A stretch of 64,000 bases of DNA from Saccoglossus kowalevskii. Lineage: Eukaryota > Hemichordata > Enteropneusta > Harrimaniidae. Shown here piece by piece: positions 1 through 64,000 of this stretch. Location of the stretch: NCBI RefSeq assembly GCF_000003605.2, contig NW_003150839.1, forward strand, positions 57,888 through 121,887, written 5' to 3'. Below the pieces are notes generated by a model. That model was not told where the DNA came from and did not search any database. It was given only the letters and a program-made list of their open reading frames with translations. Positions within the stretch are counted from its first letter, which is position 1, and every line of letters begins with the position of its first letter. A program made the translations under genes and the position numbers.

Positions 1-114
1 GCAAATTGAGTCATATCAATGCGCCTGTCTTGATAAGTTTGAGTTACACACTCATTACACATAAACATGCAACATTGACTGGTATGTCAAACATTAAAAA
101 TTCTCTCTAGTGGT

Positions 115-187
115 AGCCCCCTATGAGATTCGAACAAATGACCCCTGGTTTACAAGACCAGTGCTCTAACCATTGAGCTAAGGAGGG
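115..187 (-). pseudogene. tRNA-Thr(UGU) copy 1, degraded
   Basis: G1 is C (C1-C72 clash), T-stem bases 51 and 52 are both T (two mismatches), and G15 is A. The anticodon TGT is intact. The upstream spacer is the long type. Confidence 0.65.
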
Positions 188-709
188 TAGTTGGACTCTT
201 CAACATTCGTACGAAATTAAAATGAGTCACATTAATATAAGCTTATTAATACAAGCGTATAGAGTGGATTCAGTGGTTTTCAGACCGCAATTAACTGTAG
301 GAGTTGCCTCAATGAAAGTGAGAAATTGAGTTGAGTCAAAAAATTCGCTTGTCTTGATTGGTTTCAGTAACTCACTCATCGCCCATAAACATACAACATT
401 GACTGGTTTGTTCATCCAAGATGGAAAATTAGCTGTAGGAGTTGCCCTTTTGAAATTCGAACTAATGGCCCCGCTATAACCACGGAGCTAAGGAGGCGGC
501 TTGCAGCCTTGAAGATACCGTGTAGGAGTTGCCCCTAAGAAATTCGAAGTAATGGCTTCTGTCTTAACCACAGAGCTAATGAGGCGGCTTTCATTGCAAA
601 TTGAGTCATATCAATGCGCATGTCTTGATAAGTTTGAGTTACACACTCATTACACATAAACATGCAACATTGACTGGTATGTCAAACATTAAAAATTCTC
701 TCTAGTGGT

Positions 710-782
710 AGCCCCCTATGAGATTCGAACTCATGACCACTGGTTTACAAGACCAGTGCTCTAATCACTGAGCTAAGGAGGC
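710..782 (-). tRNA. trnT-UGU: tRNA-Thr(UGU) copy 2
   Basis: G19 is A, which would lose the G19-C56 loop contact, and G44 is T. All stems pair. Identical lesions occur in copy 89 at 51160. Confidence 0.65.
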
Positions 783-1290
783 TAGTTGGAGTCATCAACA
801 TTCGTACGAAATTAAAATGAGTCACATTAATATGCTTGTATTGAGTGGTTTCAGTGGTTTTCAGACCGCAATTAACTGTAGAAGTTGCCTCAATGAAAGT
901 GAGAAATTGAGTTGAGTAAAAAAATTCGCTTGTCTTGATTGGTTTCAGTAGCTCACTTATCGCCCATAAACATACAACATTGACTGGTTTGTTGATCCAA
1001 GATGGAAAATTAGCTGTAGCAGTTGCCCTTATGAAATTCGAACTCATGGCCCCGTTATAACCACGGAGCTAAGGAGGCGGCTTGTAGCCTTGAAGATACC
1101 GTGTATGAGTTGCCCCTAAGAAATTCGAAGTAATGGCTTCTGTCTTAACCACAGAGCTAAGGAGGCGGATTGCATTGCAAATTGAGTCATATCAATGCGC
1201 CTGTCTTGATAAGTTTGAGTTACACACTCATTACACATAAACATGCAACATTGACTGGTATGTCAAACATTAACAATTCTCTCTAGTGGC

Positions 1291-1363
1291 AGCCCCCTAT
1301 GAGATTCGAACTCATGACCCCAGGTTTACAAGACCAGTGCTCTAACCACTGAGCTAAGGAGGC
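1291..1363 (-). tRNA. trnT-UGU: tRNA-Thr(UGU) copy 3
   Basis: One anticodon-stem mismatch (T28-T42). The downstream T-run is broken to TTGTT, so termination is doubtful. Confidence 0.65.
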
Positions 1364-1871
1364 TAGTTGGCTTCTTCAAAATTCGTACGAAATTAAAATG
1401 AGTCACATTAATATGCTTGTATTGAGTGGTTTCAGTGGTTTTCAGACTGCAATTAACTGTAGGAGTTGCCTCAATGAAAGTGAGAAATTAAGTTGAGTCA
1501 AAAAATTCGCTTGTCTTGATTGGTTTCAGTAACTCACTCATCGCCCATAAACATACAACATTGACTGGTTTGTTCATCCAAGATGGAAAATTGGCTGTAG
1601 GAGTTGCCCTTATGAAATTCGAACTCATGGCCCCGCTATAACCACGGAGCTAAGGAGGCGGCTTGTTGCCTTGAAGATACCGTGTAGGAGTTGCCCCTAA
1701 GAAATTCGAAGTAATGGCTTCTGTCTTAACCACAGAGCTAAGGAGGCGGCTTGCATTGCAAATTGAGTCATATCAATGCGCCTGTCTTGATAAGTTTGAG
1801 TTACACACTCATTACACATAAACATGCAACATTGACTGGTATGTCAAACATTAAAAATTCTCTCTAGTGGT

Positions 1872-1944
1872 AGCCCCCTATGAGATTCGAACTCATGACC
1901 CCTGGTTTACAAGACCAGTGCTCTAACGACTGAGCTAAGGAGGC
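1872..1944 (-). tRNA. trnT-UGU: tRNA-Thr(UGU) copy 4
   Basis: G18 is C, weakening the D-loop/T-loop contact. Everything else is consensus. Confidence 0.7.
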
Positions 1945-2453
1945 TAGTTGGACTCTTCAACATTCGTACGAAATTAAAATGAGTCACATTAATATGCTTG
2001 TATTGAGAGTGGTTTCAGTGGTTTTCAGACCGCAATTAACTGTAGGAGTTGCCTCAATGAAAGTGAGAAATTGAGTTGAGTCAAAAAATTCGCTTGTCTT
2101 GATTGGTTTCCGTAACTCACTCATCGCCCATAAACATACAACATTGACTGGTTTGTTCATCCAAGATGGAAAATTAGCTGTAGGAGTTGCCCTTATGAAA
2201 TTCGAACTCATGGCCCATCTATAACCACGGAGCTAAGGAGACGGCTTGTAGCCTTGAAAATACCGTGCAGGAGTTGCCCCTAAGAAATTCGAAGTAATGG
2301 ATTCTGTTTTAACCACAGAGCTAAGGAGGCGACTTGATTGCAAATTGAGTCATATCAATGCGCCTGTCTTGATAAGTTTCAGTTACACACTCATTACACA
2401 TAAACATGCAACATTGACTGGTATGTCAAACATTAAAAATTCTCTCTAGTGGT

Positions 2454-2526
2454 AGCCCCCTATGAGATTCGAACTCATGACCCCTGGTTTACAAGACCAG
2501 TGCTCTAACCACTGAGCTAAGGAGGC
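2454..2526 (-). tRNA. trnT-UGU: tRNA-Thr(UGU) copy 5, consensus
   Basis: Body identical to the array consensus with a T5 terminator. The 5' flank is the long type, so upstream S2 elements sit about 13 bp further away. Confidence 0.92.
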
Positions 2527-3047
2527 TACTTGGACTCTTCAACATTCGTACGAAATTAAAATGAGTCACTTTAATATAAGCATATTAATACAAGCGTATT
2601 GAGTGGATTCAGTGGTTTTCAGACCGCAATTAACTGTAGGAGTTGCCTCAATGAAAGTGAGAAATTGAGTTGAGTCAAAAAATTCGCTTGTCTTGATTGG
2701 TTTCAGTAACGCACTCATCGCCCATAAACATACAACATTGACTGGTTTGTTCATCCAAGATGGAAAATTAGCTGTAGGAGTTGCCCTTATGAAATTCGAA
2801 CAAATGGCCCCGCTTAACCACGGAGCTAAGGAGGCGGCTTGCAGCCTTGAAGATACCGTGTAGGAGTTGCCCCTAAGAAATTCGAAGTAATGGCTTCTGT
2901 CTTAACCACAGAGCTAAGGAGGCGGCATGCATTGCAAATTGAGTCATATCAATGCGCCTGTCTTGATAAGTTTGAGTTACACACTCATTACACATAAACA
3001 TGCAACATTGACTGGTATGTCAAACATTAAAAATTCTCTCTAGTGGA

Positions 3048-3120
3048 AGCCTCCTATGAGATTCGAACTCATGACCCCTGGTTTACAAGACCAGTGCTCT
3101 AACCACTGAGCTAACGAGGC
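3048..3120 (-). tRNA. trnT-UGU: tRNA-Thr(UGU) copy 6
   Basis: G69 is A, turning U4-G69 into U-A, but C6 is G and clashes with G67. The same combination is found in copy 29 (16424). Confidence 0.7.
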
Positions 3121-3627
3121 TAGTTGGACTCTTCAACATTCGTACGAAATTAAAATGAGTCACATTAATATGCTTGTATTGAGTGGTTTCAGTGGTTTTC
3201 AGACCGCAATTAACTGTAGGAGTTGCCTCAATGAAAGTGAGAAATTGAGTTGAGTCAAAAAATTCGCTTGTCTTGATTGGTTTCAGTACGCACTCATCGC
3301 CCATAAACATACAACATTGACTGGTTTGTTCATCCAAGATGGAAAATTAGCTGTAGGAGTTGCCCTTATGAAATTCGAACTAATGGCCCCGCTATAACCA
3401 CGGAGCTAAGGAGGCGGCTTGCAGCCTTGAAGATACCGTGTCGGAGTTGCCCCTAAGAAATTCGAAGTAATGGCTTCTGTCTTAACCACAGAGCTAAGGA
3501 GGCGGCATGCATTGCAAATTGAGTCATATCAATGCGCCTGTCTTGATAAGTTTGAGTTACACACTCATTACACATAAACATGCAACATTGACTGGTATGT
3601 CAAACATTAAAAATTCTCTCTAGTGGA

Positions 3628-3700
3628 AGCCTCCTATGAGATTCGAACTCATGCCCCCTGGTTTACAAGACCAGTGCTCTAACCACTGAGCTAAGGAGGC
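3628..3700 (-). tRNA. trnT-UGU: tRNA-Thr(UGU) copy 7
   Basis: U4-A69 acceptor pair and T47 to G in the variable loop. All stems pair. Long-type 5' flank. Confidence 0.85.
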
Positions 3701-4222
3701 TAGTTAGACTGTTCAACATTCGTACGAAATTAAAATGAGTCACATTAATATAAGCTTATTAATACAAGCGTATTGAGTGGATTCATTGGTTTTCAGACCG
3801 CAATTACCTGTAGGAGTTGCCTCAATGAAAGTGAGAAATTGAGTTGAGTTAAAAAATTCGCTTGTCTTGATTGGTTTCAGTAACTCACTCATCGCCCATA
3901 AACATACAACATTGACTGGTTTGTTCATCCAAGATGGAAAATTAGCTGTAGGAGTTGCCCTTATGAAATTCGAACTCATGGCCCCGCTATAACCACGGAG
4001 CTAAGGAGGCGGCTTGTAGCCTTGAAGATACCGTGTAGGAGTTGCCCCTAAGAAATTCGAAGTAATGGCTTCTGTCTTAATCACAGAGCTAAGGAGGCGG
4101 CTTGCATTGCAAATTGAGTCATATCAATGCGCCTGTCTTGATAAGTTTGAGTTACACACTCATTACACATAAACATGCAACATTGACTGGTATGTCAAAC
4201 ATTAAAAATTCTCTCTAGTGGC

Positions 4223-4295
4223 AGCCCCCTATGAGATTCGAACTCATGACACCTGGTTTACAAGACCAGTGCTCTAACCACTGAGCTAAGGAGGC
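4223..4295 (-). tRNA. trnT-UGU: tRNA-Thr(UGU) copy 8
   Basis: Only G45 to T in the variable loop. Same change as copy 90. Confidence 0.87.
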
Positions 4296-4804
4296 TAGTT
4301 GGACTCTTCAAAATTCGTACGACATTAAAATGAGTCACATTAATATGATTGTATTGAGTGGTTTCAGTGGTTTTCAATCTGCAATTAACTGTAGGAGTTG
4401 CCTCAATGAAAGTGAGAATTTGAGTTGAGTCAAAAAAGTCGCTTGACTTGATTGGTTTCAGTAACTCACTCATCGCCCATAAACATACAACATTGACTGG
4501 TTTGTTCATCCAGATGGGAAATTAGCTGTAAGAGTTGCCTTTATGAAATTCGAACTCATGGCTCCGCTATACCACGGAGCTAAGGAGGCAGCTTGTAGCT
4601 GAAGATACCGTGTAGAGAGTTGCCCTTAAGAAATTCGAAGTAAATGGCTTTTTGTTCTGAACCACCAGAGTAAGGAGGCGGCCTGCATTGCAAATGACTC
4701 ATATCAATGCGCCTGTTCTTGATAAAGTTTGAGTTACACACTCATTACACATAAACAATGCAACATTGACTGGTATGTCAAACATTAAAATTCTCTCTAG
4801 TGGA

Positions 4805-4877
4805 AGCCCCCTATGAGATTCGAACTCATGACCCCTGGTTTACAAGACCAGTGCTCTAACCACTGAGCTAAGGAGGC
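4805..4877 (-). tRNA. trnT-UGU: tRNA-Thr(UGU) copy 9, consensus
   Basis: Consensus body with a T4 terminator. The unit to its left (4505-4760) has an unusual number of one-base indels. Confidence 0.92.
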
Positions 4878-5385
4878 TAGTTGGACTCTTCAACATTCGT
4901 ACGAAATTAAAATGATTCACATTAATATGCTTGTATTGAGTGGTTTCAGTGGTTTTCAGACCGCAATTAACTGAAGGAGTTGCCTCAATGAAAGTGAGAA
5001 ATTGAGTTGAGTCAAAAAATTCGCTTGTCTTGATTGGTTTCAGTAACTCACTCATCGCCCATAAACATACAACATTGACTGGTTTGTTCATCCAAGATGG
5101 GAAATTAGCTGTAGGAGTTGCCCTTATGAAATTCGAACTCATGGCCCCGCTATAACCACAGAGCTACGGAGGCGGCTTGTAGCCTAGAAGATACCGTGTA
5201 GGAGTTGCCCCTAAGAAATTCGAAGTAATGGCTTCTGTCTTAACCACAGAGCTAAGGAGGCGGCTTGCATTGCAAATTGAGTCATATCAATGCGCCTGTC
5301 TTGATAAGTTTGAGTTACACACTCATTACACATAAACATGCAACATTGACTGGTATGTCAAACATTAAAAAATCTCTCTAGTGGA

Positions 5386-5458
5386 AGCCCCCTATGAGAT
5401 TCGAACTCATGACCCCTGGTTTACAAGACCAGTGCTCTAACCACTGAGCTAAGGAGGC
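5386..5458 (-). tRNA. trnT-UGU: tRNA-Thr(UGU) copy 10, consensus
   Basis: Consensus body with a T6 terminator. Confidence 0.93.
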
Positions 5459-5966
5459 TAGTTGGACTCTTCAACATTCGTACGAAATTAAAATGAGTCA
5501 CATTAATATGCTTGTATTGAGTGGTTTCAGTGGTTTTCAGACCGCAATTAACTGTTGGAGTTGTCTCAATGAAAGTGAGAAATTGAGTTGAGTCAAAAAA
5601 TTCGCTTGTCTTGATTGGTTTCAGTAACTCACTCATCGCCCATAAACATACAACATTGACTGGTTTGTTCATCCAAGATGGAAAATTAGCTGTAGGAGTT
5701 GCCCTTATGAAATTCGAACTCATGGCCCCGCTATAACCACGGAGCTAAGGAGGCAGCTTGTAGCCTTGAAGATACCGTGTAGGAGTTGCCCCTAAGAAAT
5801 TCGAAGTAATGGCTTTTGTCTGAACCACAGAGCTAAGGAGGCGGCTTGCATTGCAAATTGACTCATATCAATGCGCCTGTCTTGATAAGTTTGAGTTACA
5901 CACTCATTACACATAAACATGCAACATTGACTGGTATGTCAAACATTAAAAATTCTCTCTAGTGGA

Positions 5967-6039
5967 AGCCCCCTATGAGATTCGAACTCATGACCCCTGG
6001 TTTACAAGACCAGTGCTCTAACCACTGAGCTAAGGAGGC
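5967..6039 (-). tRNA. trnT-UGU: tRNA-Thr(UGU) copy 11, consensus
   Basis: Consensus body with a T5 terminator. Unit nearly identical to that of copy 9. Confidence 0.93.
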
Positions 6040-6547
6040 TAGTTGGACTCTTCAACATTCGTACGAAATTAAAATGATTCACATTAATATGCTTGTATTG
6101 AGTGGTTTCAGTGGTTTTCAGACCGCAATTAACTGAAGGAGTTGCCTCAATGAAAGTGAGAAATTGAGTTGAGTCAAAAAATTCGCTTGTCTTGATTGGT
6201 TTCAGTAACTCACTCATCGCCCATAAACATACAACATTGACTGGTTTGTTCATCCAAGATGGGAAATTAGCTGTAGGAGTTGCCCTTATGAAATTCGAAC
6301 TCATGGCCCCGCTATAACCACAGAGCTACGGAGGCGGCTTGTAGCCTAGAAGATACCGTGTAGGAGTTGCCCCTAAGAAATTCGAAGTAATGGCTTCTGT
6401 CTTAACCACAGAGCTAAGGAGGCGGCTTGCATTGCAAATTGAGTCATATCAATGCGCCTGTCTTGATAAGTTTGAGTTACACACTCATTACACATAAACA
6501 TGCAACATTGACTGGTATGTCAAACATTAAAAAATCTCTCTAGTGGA

Positions 6548-6620
6548 AGCCTCCTATGAGATTCGAACTCATGACCCCTGGTTTACAAGACCAGTGCTCT
6601 AACCACTGAGCTAAGGAGGC
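6548..6620 (-). tRNA. trnT-UGU: tRNA-Thr(UGU) copy 12, fully paired acceptor
   Basis: The only change is G69 to A, giving seven Watson-Crick acceptor pairs. T6 terminator. Confidence 0.92.
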
Positions 6621-7127
6621 TAGTTGGACTCTTCACATTCGTACGAAATTAAAATGAGTCACATTAATATGCTTGTATTGAGTGGTTTCAGTGGTTTTCA
6701 GACCGCAATTAACTGTTGGAGTTGTCTCAATGAAAGTGAGAAATTGAGTTGAGTCAAAAAATTCGCTTGTCTTGATTGGTTTCAGTAACTCACTCATCGC
6801 CCATAAACATACAACATTGACTGGTTTGTTCATCCAAGATGGGAAATTAGCTGTAGGAGTTGCCCTTATGAAATTCGAACTCATGGCCCCCGCTATAACC
6901 ACAGAGCTACGGAGGCGGCTTGAAGCCTTGAAGATACCGTGTAGGAGTTGCCCCTAAGAAATTCGAAGTAATGGCTTCTGTCTTAACCACAGAGCTAAGG
7001 AGGCAGCTTGCATTGCAAATTGAGTCATATCAATGCGCCTGTCTTGTTAAGTTTGAGTTACACACTCATTACACATAAACATGCAACATTGACTGGTATG
7101 TCAAACATTAAAAATTCTCTCTAGTGG

Positions 7128-7200
7128 AAACCCCTATGAGATTCGAACTCATGACCCCTGGTTTACAAGACCAGTGCTCTAACGACTGAGCTAAGGGGGC
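7128..7200 (-). pseudogene. tRNA-Thr(UGU) copy 13, degraded
   Basis: One base is lost from the 3' acceptor strand (ACCCCT on the + strand), so pairs 1 and 2 fail. U4 is C and G18 is C. Duplicated as copy 17. Confidence 0.65.
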
Positions 7201-7709
7201 TAGTTGGACTCTTCAACATTCGTACGAAATTAAAATGAGTCACATTAATATGCTCTTATTGAGAGTGGTTTCAGTGGTTTTCAGACCGCAATTAACTGTA
7301 GGAGTTGCCTCAATGAAATTGAGAAATTGAGTTGAGTCAAAAAATTCGCTTGTCTTGATTGGTTTCCGTAACTCACTCATCGCCCATAAACATACAACAT
7401 TGACTGGTTTGTTCATCCAAGATGGAAAATTAGCTGTAGGAGTTGCCCTTATGAAATTCGAACTCATGGCCCATCTATAACCACGGAGCTAAGGAGACGG
7501 CTTGTAGCCTTGAAAATACCGTGCAGGAGTTGCCCCTAAGAAATTCGAAGTAATGGATTCTGTTTTAACCACAGAGCTAAGGAGGCGACTTGATTGCAAA
7601 TTGAGTCATATCAATGCGCCTGTCTTGATAAGTTTCAGTTACACACTCATTACACATAAACATGCAACATTGACTGGTATGTCAAACATTAAAAATTCTC
7701 TCTAGTGGT

Positions 7710-7782
7710 AGCCCCCTATGAGATTCGAACTCATGACCCCTGGTTTACATGACCAGTGCACTAACCACTGAGCTAAGGAGGC
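7710..7782 (-). pseudogene. tRNA-Thr(UGU) copy 14, degraded
   Basis: The conserved U33 before the anticodon is A, and the D stem has a T12-T23 mismatch. Anticodon bases are intact. Duplicated as copy 18. Confidence 0.6.
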
Positions 7783-8305
7783 TACTTGGAATCTTCAACA
7801 TTCGTACGAAATTAAAATGAGTCACATTAATATAAGCATATTAATACAAGCGTATTGAGTGGTTTCAGTGTTTTTCAGACCGCAATTAACTGTAGGAGTT
7901 GCCTCAATGAAAGTGAGAAATTGAGTTGAGTCAAACAATTCGCTTGTCTTGATTGGTTTCAGTAACTCACTCATCGCCCATAAACATACAACATTGACTG
8001 GTTTGTTCATCCAAGATGGGAAATTAGCTGTAGGAGTTGCCCAAATGAAATTCGAACTCATGGCCCCCGCTATAACCACAGAGCTACGGAGGCGGCTTGT
8101 AGCCTTGAAGATACCGTGTAGGAGTTGCTCCTAAGAAATTCGAAGTAATGGCTTCTGTCTTAACCACAGAGCTAAGGAGGCGGCTTGCATTGCAAATTGA
8201 GTCATATCAATGCGCCTGTCTTGATAAGTTTGAGTTACACACTCATTACACATAAACATGCAACATTGACTGGTATGTCAAACATTAAAAATTCTCTCTA
8301 GTGAA

Positions 8306-8360
8306 AGCCCCCTATGAGATTCGAACCAGACCAGTGCTCTAACCACTGAGCTAAGGAGGC
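8306..8360 (-). pseudogene. tRNA-Thr copy 15, 18-nt anticodon-arm deletion
   Basis: 55 nt long. The + strand reads GATTCGAACCAGACCAG, so part of the T stem, the variable loop and most of the anticodon arm are missing. It cannot be a functional tRNA. The A box remains. Confidence 0.9.
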
Positions 8361-8866
8361 TAGTTGGACTCTTCAACATTCGTACGAAATTAAAATGAGT
8401 CACATTAATTAGCTTGTATTGAGTGGTTTCAGTGGTTTTCAGACCGCAATTAACTGTTGGAGTTGCCTCAATGAAAGTGAGAAATTGAGTTGAGTCAAAA
8501 AATTCGCTTGTCTTGATTGGTTTCAGTAATTCACTCATCGCCCATAAACATACCACATTGACTGGTTTGTTCATCCAAGATGAAAAATTAGCTGTAGGAG
8601 TTGCCCTTATGAAATTCGAACTCATGGCCCCGCTATAACCACAGAGCTAAGGAGGCGGCTTGTAGCCTTGAAGATACCGTGTAGGAGTTGCCCCTTAGAA
8701 ATTCGAAGTAATGGCTTCTGTCTTAACCACAGAGCTAAGGAGGCAGCTTGCATTGCAAATTGAGTCATATCAATGCGCCTGTCTTGATAAGTTTGAGTTA
8801 CACACTCATTACACATAAACATGCAACATTGACTGGTATGTCAAACATTAAAAATTCTCTCCAGTA

Positions 8867-8939
8867 AGCCCCCTATGAGATTCGAACTCATGACCCCTGG
8901 TTTACAAGAACAGTGCTCTACCCACTGAGCTAAGGAGGC
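8867..8939 (-). tRNA. trnT-UGU: tRNA-Thr(UGU) copy 16
   Basis: Anticodon-stem mismatch T30-C40 and T20 to G. Two bases are missing just past the 3' end. Long-type 5' flank. Confidence 0.65.
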
Positions 8940-9460
8940 TAGTTGGACTCTTTAACATTCGTACGAAATTAAAATGAGTCACATTAATATAAGCATATTA
9001 ATACAAGCGTATTGAATGGATTCAGTGGTTTTCAGACCGCAATTAACTGTAGGAGTTGCCTCAATGAAAGTGAGAAATTGAGTTGAGTCAAACAATTCGC
9101 TTGTCTTGATTGGTTTCAGTAACTCACTCATCGACCATAAACATACAACATTGACTGGTTTGTTCATCCAAGATGAAAAATTAGCTGTAGGAGTTGCCCT
9201 TATGAAATTCGAACTCATGGCCCCGCTATAACCACAGAGCTACGGAGGTGGCTTGAAGCCTTGAAGATACCGTGTAGGAGTTGCCCCTAAGAAATTCGAA
9301 GTAATGGCTTCTGTCTTAACCACAGAGCTAAGGAGGCAGCTTGCATTGCAAATTGAGTCATATCAATGCGCCTGTCTTGATAAGTTTGAGTTACACACTC
9401 ATTACACATAAACATGCAACATTGACTGGTATGTCAAACATTAAAAATTCTCTCTAGTGG

Positions 9461-9533
9461 AAACCCCTATGAGATTCGAACTCATGACCCCTGGTTTACA
9501 AGACCAGTGCTCTAACGACTGAGCTAAGGGGGC
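9461..9533 (-). pseudogene. tRNA-Thr(UGU) copy 17, degraded
   Basis: Same shortened acceptor, C4 and C18 as copy 13, 2333 bp away. Confidence 0.65.
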
Positions 9534-10637: not shown

Positions 10638-10692
10638 AGCCCCCTATGAGATTCGAACCAGACCAGTGCTCTAACCACTGAGCTAAGGAGGC
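10638..10692 (-). pseudogene. tRNA-Thr copy 19, 18-nt anticodon-arm deletion
   Basis: Same 55-nt deleted form as copy 15, within the duplicated four-unit block. Confidence 0.9.
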
Positions 10693-14108: not shown

Positions 14109-14163
14109 AGCCCCCTATGAGATTCGAACCAGACCAGTGCTCTAACCACTGAGCTAAGGAGGC
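14109..14163 (-). pseudogene. tRNA-Thr copy 25, 18-nt anticodon-arm deletion
   Basis: Third occurrence of the 55-nt deleted form, here with TGTCACACATTA in the spacer, as in copies 96 and 100. Confidence 0.9.
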
Positions 14164-44157: not shown

Positions 44158-44171
44158 TTCTCTCTAGTGGA

Positions 44172-52973: not shown

Positions 52974-53020
52974 TAGTTGGACTCTTCAACATTCGTACGA
53001 AATTAAAATGAGTCACATTA

Positions 53021-54077: not shown

Positions 54078-54150
54078 AGCCCCCTATGAGATTCGAACTC
54101 ATGACCCCTGGTTTACAAGACCAGTGCTCTAACCACTGAGCTAAGGAGGC
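54078..54150 (-). tRNA. trnT-UGU: tRNA-Thr(UGU) copy 94, consensus
   Basis: Consensus body and T5 terminator. Confidence 0.93.
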
Positions 54151-54658
54151 TAGTTGGACTCTTCAACATTCGTACGAAATTAATATGAGTCACATTAATA
54201 TGCTTGTATTGAGTGGTTTCAGTGGTTTTCAGACCGCAATTAACTGTAGGAGTTGCCTCAATGAAAGTGCGAAATTGAGTTGAGTGAAAAATTCGCTTGT
54301 CTTGATTGGTTTCAGTAACTCACTCATCGCCCATAAACATATAACATTGACTGGTTTGTTCATCCAAGATGGGAAATTAACTGTAGGAGTTGCCCTTATG
54401 AAATTCGAACTCATGGCCCCCGCTATAACCACAGAGCTACGGAGGCGGCTTGTAGCCTTGAAGATACCGTGTAGGAGTTGCCCCTAAGAAATTCGAAGTA
54501 ATGGCTTCTGTCTTAACCACAGAGCTAAGGAGGCGGCTTGCATTGCAAAATAAGTCATATCAATGCGCCTGTCTTGATAAGTTTGAGTTACACACTCATT
54601 ACACATAAACATGCATCATTGACTGGTATGTCAAACATTAAAAATTCTCTCTAGTGGA

Positions 54659-54731
54659 AGCCCCCTATGAGATTCGAACTCATGACCCCTGGTTTACAAG
54701 ACCAGTGCTCTAACCACTGAGCTAAGGAGGC
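54659..54731 (-). tRNA. trnT-UGU: tRNA-Thr(UGU) copy 95, consensus
   Basis: Consensus body. 5' flank palindrome altered to TTCATACGAA. Confidence 0.92.
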
Positions 54732-55240
54732 TAGCTGGACTCTTCGACATTCATACGAAATTAAAATGAGTCACATTAATATGCTTGTATTGAGGGGTTT
54801 CAGTGGTTTTCAGACCGCAGTTAACTGTAGGAGTTGCCTCAATGAAATTGAGAAATTGAGTTGAGTTAAAAAAAACGCTTGTCTTGATTGGTTTCAGTAA
54901 CTCACTCATCGCCCATAAACATACAACATTGACTGGTTTGTTCATCGAAGATGGGAAATTAGCTGTAGGAGTTGCCCAAATGAAATTCGAACTCATGGCC
55001 CCCGCTATAACCACAGAGCTACGGAGGCGGCTTGTAGCCTTGAAGATACCGTGTAGGAGTTGCCCCTAAGAAATTCGAAGTAATGGCTTCTGTCTTAACC
55101 ACAGAGCTAAGGAGGCGGCTTGCATTGCAAATTGAGTCATATCAATGCGCCTGTCTTGATAAGTTTGAGTTACACACTCATTACACATAAACATGCAACA
55201 TTGACTGGTATGTCACACATTAAAAATTCTCTCTAGTGAA

Positions 55241-55295
55241 AGCCCCCTATGAGATTCGAACCAGACCAGTGCTCTAACCACTGAGCTAAGGAGGC
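55241..55295 (-). pseudogene. tRNA-Thr copy 96, 18-nt anticodon-arm deletion
   Basis: 55-nt deleted form, as in copies 15, 19, 25 and 100. Confidence 0.9.
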
Positions 55296-55803
55296 TAGTT
55301 GGACTCTTCAACATTCGTACGAAATTAAAATGAGTCACATTAATATGCTTGTATTGAGTGGTTTCAGTGGTTTTCAGACCGCAATTAACTGTAGGAGTTG
55401 CCTCAATGAAAGTGAGAAATTGAGTTGAGTCAAAAAATTCGCTTGTCTTGATTGGTTTCAGTAACTCACTCATCGCCCATAAACATACAACATTGACTGG
55501 TTTGTTCATCCAAGATGGAAAATTAGCTGCAGGAGTTGCCCTTATGAAATCCGAACTCATGGCACCACTATAACCACTGAGCTAAGGAGGCAGCTTGTAG
55601 CCTTGAAGATACCGTGTAGGAGTTGCCCCTAAGAATTTCGAAGTAATGGCTTCTGTTTTAACCACAGAGCTAAGGAGGCGGCTTGCATTGCAAATTGACT
55701 CATATCAATGCGCCTGTCTTGATAAGTTTGAGTTACACACTCATTACACATAAACATGCAACATTGACTGGTATGTCAAACATTAAAAATTCTCTCTAGT
55801 GGA

Positions 55804-55876
55804 AGCCCCCTATGAGATTCGAACTCATGACCCCTGGTTTACAAGACCAGTGCTCTAACCACTGAGCTAAGGAGGC
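55804..55876 (-). tRNA. trnT-UGU: tRNA-Thr(UGU) copy 97, consensus
   Basis: Consensus body. The flank reads TTCGTACAAA, breaking the palindrome. Confidence 0.92.
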
Positions 55877-56365
55877 TAGTTGGACTCTTCAACATTCGTA
55901 CAAAATTAAAATGAGTCACATTAATATGCTTCTATTGAGTGGTTTCAGTGGTTTTCAGACCGCAATTAACTGTAGGAGTTGCCTCAATGAAAGTGCGAAA
56001 TTGAGTTGAGTCAAAAATTCGCTTGTCTTGATTGGTTTCAGTAACTCACTCATCGCCCATAAACATATAACATTGACTGGTTTGTTCATCCAAGATGGGA
56101 AATTAGCTGTAGGAGTTGCCCTTATGAAATTCGAACTCATGGCCCCGCTATAACCACGGAGCTAAGGAGGCGGCTTGCAGCCTTGAAGATACCGTGCAGG
56201 AGTTGCCCATAAGAATTTCGAAGTAATGGCTTCTGTTTTAACCACAGAGCTATGAGGCGGCTTGCATTGCAAATTGACTCATATCAATGCGCCTGTCTTG
56301 ATAAGTTTGAGTTACACACTCATTAAACATAAACATGTCAAATATTTAAAATTCTCTCTAGTGGA

Positions 56366-56438
56366 AGCCCCCTATGAGATTCGAACTCATGACCACTGGT
56401 TTACAAGACCAGTGCTCTAACCACTGAGCTAAGGAGGC
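56366..56438 (-). tRNA. trnT-UGU: tRNA-Thr(UGU) copy 98
   Basis: Only G44 to T in the variable loop. T4 terminator in a shortened S1. Confidence 0.87.
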
Positions 56439-56946
56439 TAGTTGAACTCTTCAACATTCGTACGAAATTAAAATGAGTCACATTAATATGCTTGTATTGA
56501 GTGGTTTCAGTGGTTTTCAGACCGCAATTAACTGTAGGAGTTGCCTCAATGAAAGTGCGAAATTGAGTTGAGTCAAAAATTCGCTTGTCTTGATTGGTTT
56601 CAGTAACTCACTCATCGCCCATAAACATATAACATTGACTGGTTTGTTCATCCAAGATGGGAAATTAGCTGTAGGAGTTGCCCTTATGAAATTCGAACTC
56701 ATGGCCCCCGCTATAACCACAGAGCTACGGAGGCGGCTTGTAGCCTTGAAGATACCGTGTAGGAGTTGCCCCTAAGAAATTCGAAGTAATGGCTTCTGTC
56801 TTAACCACAGAGCTAAGGAGGCGGCTTGCATTGCAAATTAAGTCATATCAATGCGCCTGTCTTGATAAGTTTGAGTTACACACTCATTACACATAAACAT
56901 GCAACATTGACTGGTATGTCAAACATTAAAAATTCTCTCTAGTGGA

Positions 56947-57019
56947 AGCCCCCTATGAGATTCGAACTCATGACCCCTGGTTTACAAGACCAGTGCTCTA
57001 ACCACTGAGCTAAGGAGGC
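56947..57019 (-). tRNA. trnT-UGU: tRNA-Thr(UGU) copy 99, consensus
   Basis: Consensus body. Flank palindrome TTCATACGAA as in copies 24, 74 and 95. Confidence 0.92.
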
Positions 57020-57528
57020 TAGTTGGACTCTTCGACATTCATACGAAATTAAAATGTGTCACATTAATATGCTTGTATTGAGTGGTTTCAGTGGTTTTCA
57101 GACCGCAGTTAACTGTAGGAGTTGCCTCAATGAAAGTGAGAAATTGAGTTGAGTTAAAAAAAACGCTTGTCTTGATTGGTTTCAGTAACTCACTCATCGC
57201 CCATAAACATACAACATTGACTGGTTTGTTCATCGAAGATGGGAAATTAGCTGTAGGAGTTGCCCAAATGAAATTCGAACTCATGGCCCCCGCTATAACC
57301 ACAGAGCTACGGAGGCGGCTTGTAGCCTTGAAGATACCATGTAGGAGTTGCCCCTAAGAAATTCGAAGTAATGGCTTCTGTCTTAACCACAGAGCTAAGG
57401 AGGCGGCTTGCATTGCAAATTGAGTCATATCAATGCGCCTGTCTTGATAAGTTTGAGTTACACACTCATTACACATAAACATGCAACATTGACTGGTATG
57501 TCACACATTAAAAATTCTCTCTAGTGAA

Positions 57529-57583
57529 AGCCCCCTATGAGATTCGAACCAGACCAGTGCTCTAACCACTGAGCTAAGGAGGC
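57529..57583 (-). pseudogene. tRNA-Thr copy 100, 18-nt anticodon-arm deletion
   Basis: 55-nt deleted form, exactly 2288 bp from copy 96. Confidence 0.9.
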
Positions 57584-58091
57584 TAGTTGGACTCTTCAAC
57601 ATTCGTACGAAATTAAAATGAGTCACATTAATATGCTTGTATTGAGTGGTTTCAGTGGTTTTCAGACCGCAATTAACTGTTGGAGTTGCCTCAATGAAAG
57701 TGAGAAATTGAGTTGAGTCAAAAAATTTGCTTGTCTTGATTGGTTTCAGTAACTCACTCATCGCCCATAAACATACAACATTGACTGGTTTGTTCATCCA
57801 AGATGGAAAATTAGCTGCAGGAGTTGCCCTTATGAAATCCGAACTCATGGCCCCGCTATAACCACTGAGCTAAGGAGGCAGCTTGTAGCCTTGAAGATAC
57901 CGTGTAGGAGTTGCCCCTAAGAATTTCGAAGTAATGGCTTCTGTTTTAACCACAGAGCTAAGGAGGCGGCTTGCATTGCAAATTGACTCATATCAATGCG
58001 CCTGTCTTGATAAGTTTGAGTTACACACTCATTACACATAAACATGCAACATTGACTGGTATGTCAAACATTAAAAATTCTCTCTAGTGGA

Positions 58092-58164
58092 AGCCCCCTA
58101 TGAGATTCGAACTCATGACCCCTGGTTTACAAGACCAGTGCTCTAACCACTGAGCTAAGGAGGC
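58092..58164 (-). tRNA. trnT-UGU: tRNA-Thr(UGU) copy 101, consensus
   Basis: Consensus body and T5 terminator. Confidence 0.93.
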
Positions 58165-58673
58165 TAGTTGGACTCTTCAACATTCGTACGAAATTAATAT
58201 GAGTCACATTAATATGCTTGTATTGAGTGGTTTCAGTGGTTTTCAGACCGCAATTAACTGTAGGAGTTGCCTCAATGAAAGTGCGAAATTGAGTTGTGTC
58301 AAAAAATTCGTTTGTCTTGATTGGTTTCAGTAACTCACTCATCGCCCATAAACATACAACATTGACTGGTTTGTTCATCCAAGATGGGAAATTAGCTGTA
58401 GGAGTTGCCCTTATGAAATTCGAACTGATGGCCCCCGCTATAACCACAGAGCTACGGAGGCGGCTTGTAGCCTTGAAGATACCGTGTAGGAGTTGCCCCT
58501 AAGAAATTCGAAGTAATGGCTTCTGTCTTAACCACAGAGCTAAGGAGGCGGCTTGCATTGCAAAATAAGTCATATCAATGCGCCTGTCTTGATAAGTTTG
58601 AGTTACACACTCATTACACATAAACATGCATCATTGACTGGTATGTCAAACATTAAAAATTCTCTCTAGTGGA

Positions 58674-58746
58674 AGACCCCTATGAGATTCAAACTCATGA
58701 CCCCTGGTTTACAAGACCAGTGCTCTAACCACTGAGCTAAGGAGGC
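58674..58746 (-). tRNA. trnT-UGU: tRNA-Thr(UGU) copy 102, weakened
   Basis: C2-U71 mismatch and C56 to T. Confidence 0.57.
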
Positions 58747-59255
58747 TAGTTGGACTCTTGAACAGTCGTACGAAATTAAAATGAGTCACATTAATATGCT
58801 TGTATTGAGTGGTTTCAGTGGTTTTCAGACCGCAATTAACTGTTGGAGTTGCCTCAATGAAAGTGAGAAATTGAGTTGAGTCAAAAAATTCGCTTGTCTT
58901 GATTGGTTTCAGTAACTCACTCATCGCCCATAAACATACAACATTGACTGGTTTGTTCATCCAAGATGGGAAATTAGCTGTAGGAGTTGCCCTTATGAAA
59001 TTCGAACTCATGGCCCCCGCTATAACCACAGAGCTACGGAGGCGGCTTGTAGCCTTGAAGATACCGTGTAGGAGTTGCCCCTAAGAAATTCGAAGTAATG
59101 GCTTCTGTCTTAACCACAGAGCTAAGGAGGCGGCTTGCATTGCAAATTGAGTCATATCAATGCGCCTGTCTTGATAAGTTTGAGTTACACACTCATTACA
59201 CATAAACATGCAACATTGACTGGTATGTCAAACATTAAAAATTCTCTCTAGTGGA

Positions 59256-59328
59256 AGCCCCCTATGAGATTCAAACTCATGACCCCTGGTTTACAAGACC
59301 AGTGCTCTAACCACTGAGCTAAGGAGGC
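59256..59328 (-). tRNA. trnT-UGU: tRNA-Thr(UGU) copy 103, C56U
   Basis: C56 to T alters the B box and the G19 contact. Stems intact. Confidence 0.65.
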
Positions 59329-59836
59329 TAGTTGGACTCTTCAACAGTCGTACGAAATTAAAATGAGTCACATTAATATGCTTGTATTGAGTGGTTTCAG
59401 TGGTTTTCAGACCGCAATTAACTGTAGGAGTTGCCTCAATGAAAGTGAGAAATTGAGTTGAGTCAAAAAATTCGCTTGTCTTGATTGGTTTCAGTAACTC
59501 ACTCATCGCCCATAAACATACAACATTGACTGGTTTGTTCATCCAAGATTGAAAATTAGCTGTAGGAGTTGTCCTTATGAAATTCGAACTCATGGCCCCG
59601 CTATAACCACGGAGCTAAGGAGGCAGCTTGTAGCCTTGAAGATACCGTGTAGGAGTTGCCCCTAAGAAATTCGAAGTAGTGGCTTCTGTCTTAACCAAAG
59701 AGCTAAGGAGGCGGCTTGCATTGCAAATTGAGTCATATCAATGCGCCTGTCTTGATAAGTTTGAGTTACACACTCATTACACATAAACATGCAACATTGA
59801 CTGGTATGTCAAACATTAAAAATTCTCTCTAGTGGA

Positions 59837-59910
59837 AGCCCCTTATGAGATTCGAACTCATGACCCCCTGGTTTACAAGACCAGTGCTCTAACCACTGAG
59901 CTAAGGAGGC
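59837..59910 (-). tRNA. trnT-UGU: tRNA-Thr(UGU) copy 104, uncompensated A67
   Basis: C6-A67 mismatch and a six-base variable loop (one extra G), 74 nt in all. Confidence 0.7.
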
Positions 59911-60418
59911 TACTAGGACTCTTCAACATTCGTGCGAAATTAAAATGAGTCACATTAATATGCTTGCATTGAGTGGTTTCAGTGGTTTTCAGACCGCAAT
60001 TACCTGTAGGAGTTGCCTCAATGAAAGTGAGAAATTGAGTTGAGTCAAAAAATTCGCTTGTCTTGACTGGTTTCAGTAACTCACTCATCGCCCATAAACA
60101 TACAACATTGACTGGTTTGTTCATCCAAGATGGAAAATTAGCTGTAGGAGTTGCCCTTATGAAATTCGAACTCATGGCCCCGCTATAACCACGGAGCTAA
60201 GGAGGCGGCTTGTAGCCTTGAAGATACCGTGTAGGAGTTGCCCCTAAGAAATTCGAAGTAATGGCTTCTGTCTGAACCACAGAGCTAAGGAGGCGGCTTG
60301 CATTGCAAATTGACTCATATCAATGCGCCTGTCTTGATAAGTTTGAGTTACACACTCATTACACATAAACATGCAACATTGACTGGTATGTCAAACATTA
60401 AAAATTCTCTCTAGTGGA

Positions 60419-60491
60419 AGCCCCATATGAGATTCCAACTCATGACCCCTGGTTTACAAGACCAGTGCTCTAACCACTGAGCTAAGGAGGC
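60419..60491 (-). pseudogene. tRNA-Thr(UGU) copy 105, C56 lost
   Basis: C56 to G and C6-U67 as in copies 70 and 85, but with T47 retained. Confidence 0.6.
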
Positions 60492-60999
60492 TAGTTGGAC
60501 TCTTCAACAGTCGTACGAAATTAAAATGAGTCACATTAATATGCTTGTATTGAGTGGTTTCAGTGGTTTTCAGACCGCAATTAACTGTAGGAGTTGCCTC
60601 AATGAAAGTGAGAAATTGAGTTGAGTCAAAAAATTCGTTTGTCTTGATTGGTTTCAGTAACTCACTCATCGCCCATAAACATACAACATTGACTGGTTTG
60701 TTCATCCAAGATGGGAAATTAGCTGTAGGAGTTGCCCTTATGAAATTCGAACTCATGGCCCCGCTATAACCACGGAGCTAAGGAGACGGCTTGTAGCCTT
60801 GAAGATACCGTGTAGGAGTTGCCCCTAAGAAATTCGAAGTAATGGCTTCTGTCTTAACCACAGAGCTAAGGAGGCGGCTTGCATTGCAAATTGAGTCATA
60901 TCAATGCGCCTGTCTTGATAAGTTTGAGTTACACACTCATTACACATAAACATGCAACATTGACTGGTATGTCAAACATTAAAAATTCTCTCTATTGGT

Positions 61000-61072
61000 A
61001 GCCCCCTATGAGATTCGAACTCTTGACCCCTGGTTTACAAGACCAGTGCCCTAACCACTGAGCTAAGGAGGC
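61000..61072 (-). tRNA. trnT-UGU: tRNA-Thr(UGU) copy 106
   Basis: A50-A64 mismatch and U12-G23 wobble, as in copies 47 and 50. Confidence 0.72.
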
Positions 61073-61582
61073 TAGTTGGACTCTTCAACATTCGTACGAA
61101 AATAAAATGAGTCACATTAATATGCTTGTATTGAGTGGTTTCAGTGGTTTTCAGACCGCAATTAACTGTAGGAGTTGCCTCAATGAAAGTGAGAAATTGA
61201 GTTGAGTCAACAAAAAAACGCTTGTCTTGATCGGTTTCAGTAACTCACTCATCGCCCATAAACATACAACATTGACTGGTTTGTTCATCCAAGATGGAAA
61301 ATTAGCTGTAGGAGTTGCCCTTATGAAATTCGAACTCATGGCCCCGCTATAACCACGGAGCTAAGGAGGCGGCTCGTAGCCTTGAAGATACCGTGTAGGA
61401 GTTGTCCCTAAGAAATTCGAAGTAATGGCTTCTGTCTTAATCACAGAGCTAAGGAGGTGGCTTGCATTGCAAATTGAGTCATATCAATGCGCCTGTCTTG
61501 ATAAGTTTGAGTTACACACTCATTACACATAAACATGCAACATTGACTGGTATGTCAAACATTAAAAATTCTCTCTAGTGGC

Positions 61583-61655
61583 AGCCCCCTATGAGATTCG
61601 AACTCATGACCCCTGGTTTACAAGACCAGTGCTCTAACCACTGAGCTAAGGAGGC
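61583..61655 (-). tRNA. trnT-UGU: tRNA-Thr(UGU) copy 107, consensus
   Basis: Consensus body in the position that carries the T57 variant in the related 25.8-29.9 kb block. Confidence 0.93.
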
Positions 61656-62163
61656 TAGTTGGACTCTTCAAAATTCGTACGACATTAAAATGAGTCACAT
61701 TAATATGCTTGTATTGAGTGGTTTCAGTGGTTTTCAATCTGCAATTAACTGTAGGAGTTGCCTCAATGAAAGTGAGAAATTGAGTTGAGTCAAAAAAGTC
61801 GCTTGTCTTGATTGGTTTCAGTAACTCACTCATTGCCCATAAACATACAACATTGACTGGTTTTTTCATCCAAGATGGGAAATTAGCTGTAGGAGTTGCC
61901 TTTATGAAATTCGAACTCATGGCCCCGCTATAACCACAGAGCTAAGGAGGTGGCTTGTAGCCTTGAAGATACCGTGTAGGAGTTGCCCCTAAGAAATTCG
62001 AAGTAATGGCTTCTGTCTTAACCACAGAGCTAAGGAGGCGGCTTGCATTGCAAATTGAGTCATATCAATGCGCCTGTCTTTATAAGTTTGAGTTACACAC
62101 TCATTACACATAAACATGCAACATTGACTGGTATGTCGAACATTAAAAATTCTCTCTTGTGGA

Positions 62164-62236
62164 AGCCCCCTATGAGATTCGAACTCATGACCCCTGGTTT
62201 ACAAGACCAGAGCTCTAACCACTGAGCTAAGGAGGC
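62164..62236 (-). tRNA. trnT-UGU: tRNA-Thr(UGU) copy 108
   Basis: Only A26 to T at the D/anticodon stem junction. Confidence 0.87.
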
Positions 62237-62744
62237 TAGTTGGACTCTTCAACATTCGTACGAAATTAAAATGAGTCACATTAATATGCTTGTATTGAGT
62301 GGTTTCAGTGGTTTTCAGACCGCAATTAACTGTAGGAGTTGCCTCAATGAAAGTGAGAAATTGAGTTGAGTCAAAAGATTCGCTTGTTTTGATTGGTTTC
62401 AGTAACTCACTCATCGCCCATAAACATACAACATTGACTGGTTTGTTCATCCAAGATGGAAAATTAGCTGTAGGAGTTGCCCTTATGAAATTCGAACTCA
62501 TGGCCCCGCTATAACCACGGAGCTAAGGAGACGGCTTGTAGCCTTGAAGATACCGTGTAGGAGTTGCCCCTAAGAAATTCGAAGTAATGGCTTCTGTCTT
62601 AACCACAGAGCTAAGGAGGCGGCTTGCATTGCAAATTGAGTCATATCAATGCGCCTGTCTTGATAAGTTTGAGTTACACACTCATTACACATAAACATGC
62701 AACATTGACTGGTATGTCAAACATTAAAAATTCTCTCTTGCGGA

Positions 62745-62817
62745 AGCCCCCTATGAGATTCGAACTCATGACTCCTGGTTTACAAGACCAGTGCTCTAAC
62801 CACTGAGCTAAGGAGGC
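62745..62817 (-). tRNA. trnT-UGU: tRNA-Thr(UGU) copy 109
   Basis: G45 to A only. Confidence 0.88.
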
Positions 62818-63325
62818 TAGTTGGACTCTTCAAAATTCGTACGACATTAAAATGAGTCACATTAGTATGCTTGTATTGAGTAGTTTCAGTGGTTTTCAAT
62901 CTGCAATTAACTGTAGGAGTTGCCTCAATGAAAGTGAGAAATTGAGTTGAGTCAAAAAATTTGCTTGTCTTGATTGGTTTCAGTAACTCACTCATCGCCC
63001 ATAAACATACAACATTGACTGGTTTGTTAATCGAAGATGGAAAATTAGCTGTAGGAGTTGCCCTTATGAAATTCGAACTCATGGCCCCGCTATAACCACG
63101 GAGCTAAGGAGACGGCTTGTAGCCTTGAAGATACCGTGTAGGAGTTGCCCCTAAGAAATTCGAAGTAATGGCTTCTGTCTTAACCACAGAGCTAAGGAGG
63201 CGGCTTGCATTGCAAATTGAGTCATATCAATGCGCCTGTCTTGATAAGTTTGAGTTACACACTCATTACACATAAACATGCAACATTGACTGGTATGTCA
63301 AACATTAAAAATTCTCTCTAGTGGT

Positions 63326-63398
63326 AGCCCACTATGAGATTCGAACAAATGACCCCTGGTTACCAAGACCAGTGCTCTAACCACAGAGCTAAGGAGGC
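63326..63398 (-). pseudogene. tRNA copy 110, anticodon changed to UGG, degraded
   Basis: The loop reads CTTGGTA, so the anticodon would be UGG (proline) with A37 to T. C5-U68 mismatch, T51 and T52 in the T stem, and A14 to T. Probably inactive. Confidence 0.65.
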
Positions 63399-63908
63399 TA
63401 GTTGGACTCTTCAACATTCGTACGAAATTACAATGAGTCACATTAATATGCTTGTATTGAGTGGTTTCAGTGGTTTTCAGACCGCAATTAACTATAGGAG
63501 TTGCCTCAATGAAAGTGAGAAATTGAGTTGAGTCAAAAAAACGCTTGTCTTGATTGGTTTCAGTAACTCACTCATCGCCCATAAACATACAACATTGACT
63601 GGTTTGTTCATCCAAGATGGAAAATTAGCTGTAGGAGTTGCCCTTATGAAATTCGAACTCATGGCCGCGCTATAACCACGGAGCTAAGGAGGCGGCTTGT
63701 AGCCTTGAAGATACCGTGTAGGAGTTGCCCCTAAAGAAATTCGAAGTAATGGCTTCTGTCTTAACCACAGAGCTAACGAGGCGGCTTGCATTGCAAATTG
63801 AGTCATATCAATGCGCCTGTCTTGATAAAGTTTGAGTTACACACTCATTACACATAAACATGCAACATTTGACTGGTTTGTCAAACATTTAAAATGACCT
63901 CTAAGTGA

Positions 63909-63980
63909 AGCCCCCTATGAGATTCGAACTTCATGACCCCTGATTTACAGACCAGTGCTCTAACCATTGAGCTAAGAGGG
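63909..63980 (-). pseudogene. tRNA-Thr copy 111, several indels
   Basis: An extra base in the T stem, one base missing from the anticodon loop (CTGTAA), one missing from the 5' acceptor, and G1 to C. The surrounding 200 bp also has one-base indels, so sequence error is a live alternative to real decay. Confidence 0.6.
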
Positions 63981-64000
63981 TAGTTGGACTCTTCACATTC

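Follow-up and report, generated by a model that had tools for sequence, protein, structure and literature searches.

Introduction

Much of the tRNA complement of Entamoeba lies in separate long tandem arrays, the units of which hold one to several tRNAs. In Xenopus, the tandem unit of the oocyte-type 5S DNA combines a Pol III gene with a truncated pseudogene, and its developmental use is established. Ser-Tyr-Tyr and Pro tRNA genes also form clusters in Arabidopsis, smaller than the array described here. The locus that we analysed is a 64-kb stretch of Saccoglossus kowalevskii DNA (hereafter the window), the final 64 kb of a 121,887-bp contig. It resembles the Entamoeba system in its separate long tandem tRNA arrays; however, Entamoeba units contain short tandem repeats, whereas the arrays that we read hold one tRNA type per unit, changed anticodons aside, and here Asp-GUC matches are unclustered and dispersed genes coexist with the arrays. 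As in the Xenopus 5S DNA, each unit joins a Pol III gene to truncated relics, but the gene encodes a tRNA instead of 5S rRNA.

The Entamoeba arrays are named in PMC7681961. Homogeneous tDNA clusters, defined by neighbours of one isoacceptor family <1000 nt apart, are reported to have arisen many times among eukaryotes, and Nematostella and teleosts to carry tRNA clusters of fifty and more members, though not explicitly homogeneous ones (PMC2888827). The present locus likewise consists of one-isoacceptor neighbours <1000 nt apart; it differs from the clusters of PMC2888827 by its more than 200 units on one gap-free contig, by a regular unit of tRNA plus relics, and by the measurement of variability. 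The Arabidopsis clusters are also tandem and made of seemingly redundant tRNA genes, which in the plant are silent in most tissues, but the Ser-Tyr-Tyr unit holds two isoacceptors (PMC12308677). A human tandem repeat bearing tRNA, the 1q23.3 VNTR, differs in having 7.3-kb, GC-rich, CTCF-binding units, 9-43 per allele (PMC4041453). Finally, tRNA-derived sequence is found in Harttia catfish satellites, there in complex units mixed with SINE and LINE pieces (PMC11955569). Homogeneous tRNA clusters are thus already known; what is new is the scale and the number of isoacceptors that are arrayed.

A tRNA-Thr(UGU) array spans the entire contig

A unit of ~581 bp is repeated head-to-tail across the entire contig, which is free of gaps (zero N in window and contig), with one tRNA-Thr(UGU) gene per unit:

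1..64000, minus strand: array of ~581-bp units in tandem, each with one tRNA-Thr(UGU) gene, running on over the contig
1287..1867, minus strand: example unit, reference for BLAST and alignments
1872..1944, minus strand: example mature tRNA-Thr(UGU), 73 nt (Rfam tRNA, 70.5 bits)
1853..1857, minus strand: T5 run resembling a Pol III terminator, about 14 nt past the 3' end of the tRNA
8325..8360, minus strand: truncated tRNA, nt 1-36 only, the missing 3' half replaced by a 23-bp non-unit stretch
10657..10692, minus strand: truncated tRNA, nt 1-36 only
14128..14163, minus strand: truncated tRNA, nt 1-36 only
55260..55295, minus strand: truncated tRNA, nt 1-36 only
57548..57583, minus strand: truncated tRNA, nt 1-36 only
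63322..63399, minus strand: copy with a TGG anticodon, called tRNA-Pro by ARAGORN

Every one of the 106 tRNA genes that ARAGORN called in the window lies on the minus strand; 103 are Thr(TGT), one is Pro(TGG) and two have an incomplete anticodon. A separate BLAST count gave 106 near-complete copies and 5 that keep only nucleotides 1-36, which bears out the at least 111 tRNA positions claimed by an earlier, sequence-only reading of the window. That reading was also right to see a satellite-scale array of one isoacceptor, which in fact fills the contig (203 tRNA copies and 9 with the 3' half lost). It had further described the array as perfectly head-to-tail. The orientation held, a single unit matching the contig on the plus strand only; the perfection did not, because mean pairwise identity is 96.0% (n=99 aligned window units), unit length varies between 555 and 596 bp, and truncation or rearrangement affects a few units. 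Twelve stretches of at least 8 bp of the contig had no unit match >150 bits: 11 measure 10-24 bp and the other, at the contig end, 97 bp.

Copies of one isoacceptor family thus follow one another <1000 nt apart, as in homogeneous tDNA clusters (PMC2888827), mostly at 581 bp; applied strictly, the 1000-nt limit divides the window into six clusters, at 5 slightly larger gaps that each enclose a truncated copy. As a long homogenised head-to-tail array of similar units, the locus is also satellite DNA. The consensus tRNA has all the sequence hallmarks of a Pol III gene: cloverleaf, A box, B box, anticodon and T-run terminator. A run of at least four T lies no more than 40 nt away in 194 of the 203 copies of the contig, and in the example tRNA CCA is not encoded directly 3' of the discriminator. 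The array is probably transcription-competent. As to the claim that the window holds no other gene, its 10 ORFs of at least 110 aa reach 135 aa at most, and Rfam, run on bases 1-6000, returned ten tRNA matches above the gathering score and otherwise eight weak opposite-strand matches, all to a single family and under the gathering score of that family. The tRNA relics, however, had gone unmentioned.

The unit carries tRNA relics and linkers of low variability

Besides the tRNA-Thr(UGU) gene, the array unit bears tRNA relics, and two linker segments stand out by their low variability:

1683..1748, minus strand: relic C, tRNA-derived, without anticodon arm (alignment; position converted from the consensus unit)
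1596..1660, minus strand: relic B, tRNA-derived, without anticodon arm (alignment; position converted from the consensus unit)
1458..1481, minus strand: piece left from the T-arm end of another relic (24 bp, 83% to the 3' end of relic C, E 0.007)
1768..1847, no strand: linker segment with the lowest variability, 0.0078 substitutions per site, paralogous to 1508-1567
1508..1567, no strand: second low-variability linker segment, 0.0100

TRF returned 15 rows for the 64 kb, of which three are 14-bp runs with 2.4-3.2 copies and the others, with periods of 87-100 bp, are relic pairs; no Entamoeba-like short tandem repeats between the tRNAs of a unit were found by this search. A loose pattern count over the window (up to 4 substitutions) gave 282 hits for relic B, 271 for relic C and 168 for the intact 5' end; these counts were left unused because the three patterns cross-match one another.

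Units are homogenised across the array

Identity is nearly flat with distance, 0.964 between neighbouring units and 0.961 at a separation of 59 units, and several identical units sit 42-165 units from each other. Such a pattern would be expected if head-to-tail amplification had started from a unit that joined a single tRNA-Thr(UGU) gene to older tRNA relics, unequal exchange and/or gene conversion then holding the units uniform across the array.

Repeats of this kind may also be created by the assembler. Both ends of the contig lie inside the array, as one would expect had a short array been inflated. However, the units are mostly distinguishable, differing by 4% on average, and only 20 pairs among all pairs of 191 units are at least 99.8% identical. 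Moreover, the same array is present on a second contig (C3345, 20,925 bp), a 2,925-bp piece of which is at best 97.7% identical to C4103, and the first contig contains no N. An artefact is therefore very improbable.

Array copies decay like satellite DNA

Variability per site is 0.0199 in the tRNA and 0.0204 in the unit. The ratio of tRNA to the rest of the unit is 0.98 (95% 0.72-1.30) and that of tRNA to relics 0.87 (0.58-1.30); a rank test of tRNA against the rest of the unit gave p = 0.011, though the means are equal. Mutations did not avoid the stems: 41 pair-breaking changes occur among the 92 distinct tRNA variants, compared with 44.8 +- 4.2 expected. Intact-like tRNAs make up 94 of the 191 aligned copies, 58 are identical to the consensus and 104 have no broken pair. 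Among the tRNA parts compared, variability is lowest in the A box (0.0092), followed by the anticodon loop (0.0135), and highest in the acceptor stem (0.0366), the 3' acceptor strand (0.055) being the most variable part examined. The low values of the A box and anticodon loop could be a sign that promoter or decoding is weakly constrained; with this partial exception, purifying selection was not detected on the Thr copies. Overall, the Thr copies are without measurable copy-level selection and decay much like ordinary satellite DNA, unlike working genes. Even if the array were important, selection on a single one of its ~200 copies would be too faint to detect.

Distinct variants are more numerous per site in the tRNA (1.26 vs 0.90, p = 0.0005), whereas singletons alone do not differ between the tRNA and the rest (p = 0.22). 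Transcription-associated mutagenesis is a possible cause of this excess, which may be explained equally well by the low-variability linkers.

These values bear on the suggestion, made from the sequence alone, that the array is a dosage reservoir. At the level of single copies this finds no support, the tRNA on average matching the rest of the unit in variability, stems not being avoided and three identical Thr-UGU genes being dispersed elsewhere. A dosage role is possible at the array level alone: the whole array would supply tRNA-Thr(UGU) at a stage of very high demand (oocyte, early embryo or mucus glands), much as oocyte-type 5S genes do in Xenopus, and the decay of single copies would be tolerable because about half stay good. 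The intact consensus elements and the copies without a broken pair fit such a supply. So does the clustering of matches to other isoacceptors, initiator Met included, as a general supply would need, and a plant precedent is available in the Arabidopsis Ser/Tyr array, which is active in root-tip cells but silent in the majority of tissues (PMC12308677). Nevertheless, mean variability of the tRNA is not below that of linkers or relics, its distinct variants are in excess, identical genes exist elsewhere and the five Asp-GUC matches are dispersed. We consider array-level dosage unlikely.

The sequence-only reading had also proposed a structural chromosomal satellite, which agrees with the evolutionary pattern. 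Taken as function, arrayed A and B boxes might bind TFIIIC and so organise chromatin, or the array might be a (peri)centromeric satellite, and the tRNA product would be irrelevant. The contrast between A box and acceptor stem speaks for this; in addition, the window is poor in CpG (o/e 0.55) and CpG sites show double the variability, as in methylated DNA, and a boundary role has been proposed for the CTCF-binding tRNA repeat at human 1q23.3 (PMC4041453). However, box-like pieces also occur in relic B, and that relic is not conserved (0.0267); CpG is not depleted in the Arg (1.02), Cys (0.83) and Trp (0.90) arrays, one locus each; and a non-array stretch (L016) is equally depleted (0.51). A structural or chromatin element thus appears quite improbable as the main explanation.

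Dispersed genes coexist with the array

Elsewhere in the assembly, three dispersed Thr-UGU genes share one identical 72-nt sequence in unrelated flanks that have a single 15-bp match in common. The array tRNA differs from them in the D loop and at one pair, A49-U65 in the array and G49-C65 in the dispersed genes. Truncated tRNA relics in the unit might recall a SINE or retroposon of tRNA origin that became tandem by chance, but the tRNA of the array has its full length and folds, and the dispersed copies examined (5 of 9 candidates scored) share the tRNA alone, without linker; we regard this origin as extremely improbable.

We think it fairly probable that the locus is a homogenised tRNA-gene satellite, the copies of which are individually nearly dispensable, and that it is one of several single-isoacceptor arrays in the genome. 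Most copies would then be able to bind TFIIIC and Pol III, as predicted, yet each could be lost; most are probably silent or little used, silence being a guess. The dispersed genes may back up the supply of tRNA-Thr(UGU), and turnover would sustain the array, with selection on the whole array weak at most.

Other isoacceptors are arrayed in the same assembly

The sequence-only reading had implied that the array is unique. This no longer holds, given the Nematostella and teleost clusters of PMC2888827 and further arrays in the assembly itself. Single-tRNA arrays were read directly for Arg-UCG, Cys-GCA and Trp-CCA, which came to light because they are arrayed and were not chosen as probes, and in part for Lys-CUU. 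Among five isoacceptors probed by choice, four (Gly-GCC, Lys-CUU, initiator Met and Sec) gave clustered matches, those of Gly, initiator Met and Sec being inferred as arrays from match spacing; Asp-GUC gave five dispersed matches without clustering. For Sec, 10 of 11 matches, putatively identified by a 22-base probe, cluster on one contig; this clustering ruled out the Sec tRNA as a single-copy negative control.

The Arg unit is also relic-bearing; Arg arrays were analysed with strong tRNA anchors, keeping relics out, and Trp with 18 units. Variability of the tRNA in the Cys arrays is about half that of the linker (0.032 vs 0.068), so constraint on some arrays is possible. No convincing linker common to arrays of different isoacceptors was found. 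A wider proposal is that isoacceptor-specific satellite arrays of up to 200+ units house a large part of the tRNA genes, those for initiator Met and perhaps selenocysteine among them; the arrays would act as a separate, stage-specific (e.g. oocyte) supply or as Pol III-factor chromatin domains, a few dispersed genes doing the everyday work. We offer it tentatively, as rather doubtful.

This animal therefore carries decaying satellite tRNA copies of several kinds beside, at least for Thr-UGU, identical dispersed genes. The system lets one ask how many tRNA genes a cell needs, how copy number relates to codon use and how a Pol III gene becomes a satellite, and it cautions that functional dosage may be smaller than the number of tRNA genes counted in assemblies of this kind.

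A cephalochordate origin, considered on the basis of mitochondrial gene order, was rejected: an inverted cox1 is not among the rearrangements described for Asymmetron (PMC2034537), and ATA occupies positions where Ile is usual. In the mtDNA of the assembly, AAA was read as Lys and AUA as Ile, on the strength of Lys and Ile sites that we take to be conserved. Together with an inverted cox1, these readings agree with Saccoglossus as described in PMC3121625 and point to an acorn worm, probably of that genus.

Extent and anatomy of the Thr array

In the window, ARAGORN called 106 tRNA genes, each of them on the minus strand and 103 identified as Thr(TGT), and a BLAST search with one unit showed that the ~581-bp units run head-to-tail in a single orientation throughout. 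Contig C4103 (121,887 bp), in a 572-Mb assembly of 4830 contigs, ends with the 64,000 bases of the window; the 57,887 bases ahead of them held 95 further tRNA genes (ARAGORN). Counted by BLAST, C4103 carries 203 near-complete tRNA copies and 9 cut to approximately nucleotides 1-36. The window's share is 106 near-complete and 5 cut copies, which bears out the 111 tRNA positions claimed for it by the sequence-only reading. Twelve stretches of at least 8 bases in C4103 had no match to the unit: 11 measured 10-24 bp and one, at the end of the contig, 97 bp. Both ends of C4103 lie inside the array, so its true length may exceed 121,887 bp. The same array was present on a second contig, C3345 (20,925 bp); a 2,925-bp piece of it reached at best 97.7% identity with C4103, so C3345 is no plain overlap. 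The proposed satellite-scale array of one tRNA is real and long.

The array gene is a 73-nt tRNA-Thr(UGU); among the ten copies lying in the window's first 6 kb, the top one scored 74.9 bits against an Rfam gathering score of 29. A run of at least 4 T was found within 40 nt downstream of the tRNA in 194 of 203 copies, at offset 14 in 175. The consensus unit also contains two tRNA-derived pieces without an anticodon arm (relics B and C) and one T-arm-end remnant. An Rfam scan of 6 kb gave no family match for two paralogous linker segments (76% identity across 109 bp), which were the least variable among the regions compared, below the tRNA itself:

Linker segments of the example unit (window positions)
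1768-1847: linker segment, variability 0.0078
1508-1567: linker segment, variability 0.0100

Arrays of other isoacceptors

A genome Rfam tRNA search scored 63 of 25,204 candidates, 62 of which lay on contigs shown to be arrays and the remaining one on C3484. Contigs read wholly or in part revealed arrays of Arg-UCG (C237, C1937, C3006), Cys-GCA (C926, C682, C4368) and Trp-CCA (C4826). The Arg unit (565 bp; stretches L018, L021, L022, L031 and L032) has a single intact tRNA together with a single relic, an architecture like that of the Thr unit.

The Arg, Cys and Trp contigs surfaced because they are arrayed; later isoacceptors were probed by choice, five with results, using presumed sequences. 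Clustering was seen with four of the five probes (Gly, Lys, initiator Met and Sec). The Gly-GCC probe gave 109 matches at no more than 1 mismatch, those among the 100 listed all falling on six contigs. Lys-CUU gave 46 (C4166, 28; C2779, 14; C1622, 3; C1146, 1), and three Lys genes lay ~0.5 kb apart in one of two C4166 pieces read. For initiator Met there were 242 matches; among the 100 listed, 98 were on C341, C3681, C2143 and C848, and 2 were isolated. Matches on C2143 and C341/C3681 showed two spacings, ~1907 bp and ~603 bp, as if there were two kinds of array. For tRNA-Sec a tandem arrangement would be unusual; at no more than 2 mismatches the Sec probe had 11 matches, 10 clustered on C1591 and an isolated one that was perfect. 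The ten occupy C1591:151-9509 on one strand, with spacings of ~0.5 and 1.3 kb. The Asp-GUC probe showed no clustering: its 5 matches, of 2 mismatches each, were spread over three contigs with a minimum separation of 5 kb, though more divergent copies would escape it. Among the loci hit by these probes, two Lys contig pieces were read, so the probable head-to-tail order of the Gly, initiator Met and Sec copies rests on the single strand per contig and the spacing of matches.

Homogenisation and constraint

From 217 unit matches in C4103, 191 full units were aligned, truncated or rearranged units being excluded. Identity barely differed between neighbours (96.4%) and units 59 apart (96.1%), showing homogenisation along the whole array. 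Per-site variability was 0.0199 in the tRNA, 0.0204 in the whole unit, 0.0267 in relic B and 0.0202 in relic C; the tRNA/rest ratio was 0.98 (site bootstrap 0.72-1.30, unit bootstrap 0.84-1.13) and the tRNA/relics ratio 0.87 (0.58-1.30). The 92 distinct tRNA variants comprised 41 pair-breaking, 13 pair-keeping and 38 unpaired changes, where random placement would give 44.8, 10.8 and 36.4. No broken pair was found in 104 of the 191 copies; 94 in addition retained the anticodon, T8A9 and the core of the B box. Identity to the consensus was seen in 58 copies. Copy-level evolution argues against every unit being a needed gene. Two of the 191 copies, including that at window 63322-63399, have the anticodon changed to TGG (Pro).

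Several results speak against a purely neutral reading. In the Thr array, variability was lower in the A box (0.0092) and in the anticodon loop (0.0135) than in the acceptor stem (0.0366), whose excess over the remaining tRNA positions was significant (permutation p = 0.0012), and despite equal means a rank test separated the tRNA from the rest of the unit (p = 0.011). In the Cys arrays (101 of 110 units used), moreover, the tRNA had about half the linker variability (0.0324 vs 0.0678). The values were 0.0185 vs 0.0211 in the Arg arrays (77 of 86 units) and 0.0247 vs 0.0357 in the Trp array (18 of 22); variants clearly avoided pair breakage in none of the Arg, Cys and Trp sets. As the tRNA/linker gap is large for Cys and smaller for Arg and Trp, the degree of constraint may differ from array to array.

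Dispersed Thr-UGU genes

A 20-base anticodon-arm probe had 180 exact matches genome-wide, of which C4103 has 158, C3345 has 19 and C2107 has 3. All three genes on C2107 share one identical 72-nt sequence, and their flanks (228-300 bp) have only a 15-bp match in common. Identity despite unlike flanks looks like the pattern of purifying selection on working genes; it may also result from recent copying of the tRNA alone. A partial Thr copy is also found on C2107, and another copy, with a different 3' end, on C4203. A compensated pair separates the array (A49-T65) from the C2107 genes (G49-C65), which suggests that structural constraint shaped the array tRNA before or early in its amplification.

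CpG content

CpG observed/expected was 0.55 in the window (depleted); single Arg, Cys and Trp array loci gave 1.02, 0.83 and 0.90 (not depleted). Around dispersed Thr genes, two loci gave 0.94 and 0.92 (not depleted), and the adjoining non-array stretch L016 gave 0.51 (depleted). CpG sites of the Thr unit were about twice as variable as other sites (0.0399 vs 0.0194). The depletion and this variability are hints of methylation and prove nothing.

Relation to known tRNA clusters

The Thr array belongs to a known kind, the homogeneous tRNA clusters; its novelty is the satellite scale and the recurrence for several isoacceptors within one genome. A role in tRNA supply at array level, or a role in chromatin, is possible. 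S. kowalevskii tRNA counts were used in PMC8580430, which has zero occurrences of the words "tandem" and "cluster". Our search of the open-licence PMC literature, mostly by listing, found no report of acorn worm tRNA arrays, nor a closer match.

Mitochondrial contig

Contig C4830 (17,037 bp) is mitochondrial, and its gene order and code together point to an acorn worm that is a Saccoglossus or closely related to it. It has cox1 inverted relative to neighbouring genes and a deuterostome-like gene order nad3-R-nad4L-nad4-H-S1-nad5. AAA occupies conserved Lys positions, and ATA positions where Ile is the common residue. In PMC3121625, S. kowalevskii mtDNA is described with a COX1 inversion and AAA coding for Lys, and AUA codes for Ile in echinoderms, enteropneusts and Rhabdopleura.
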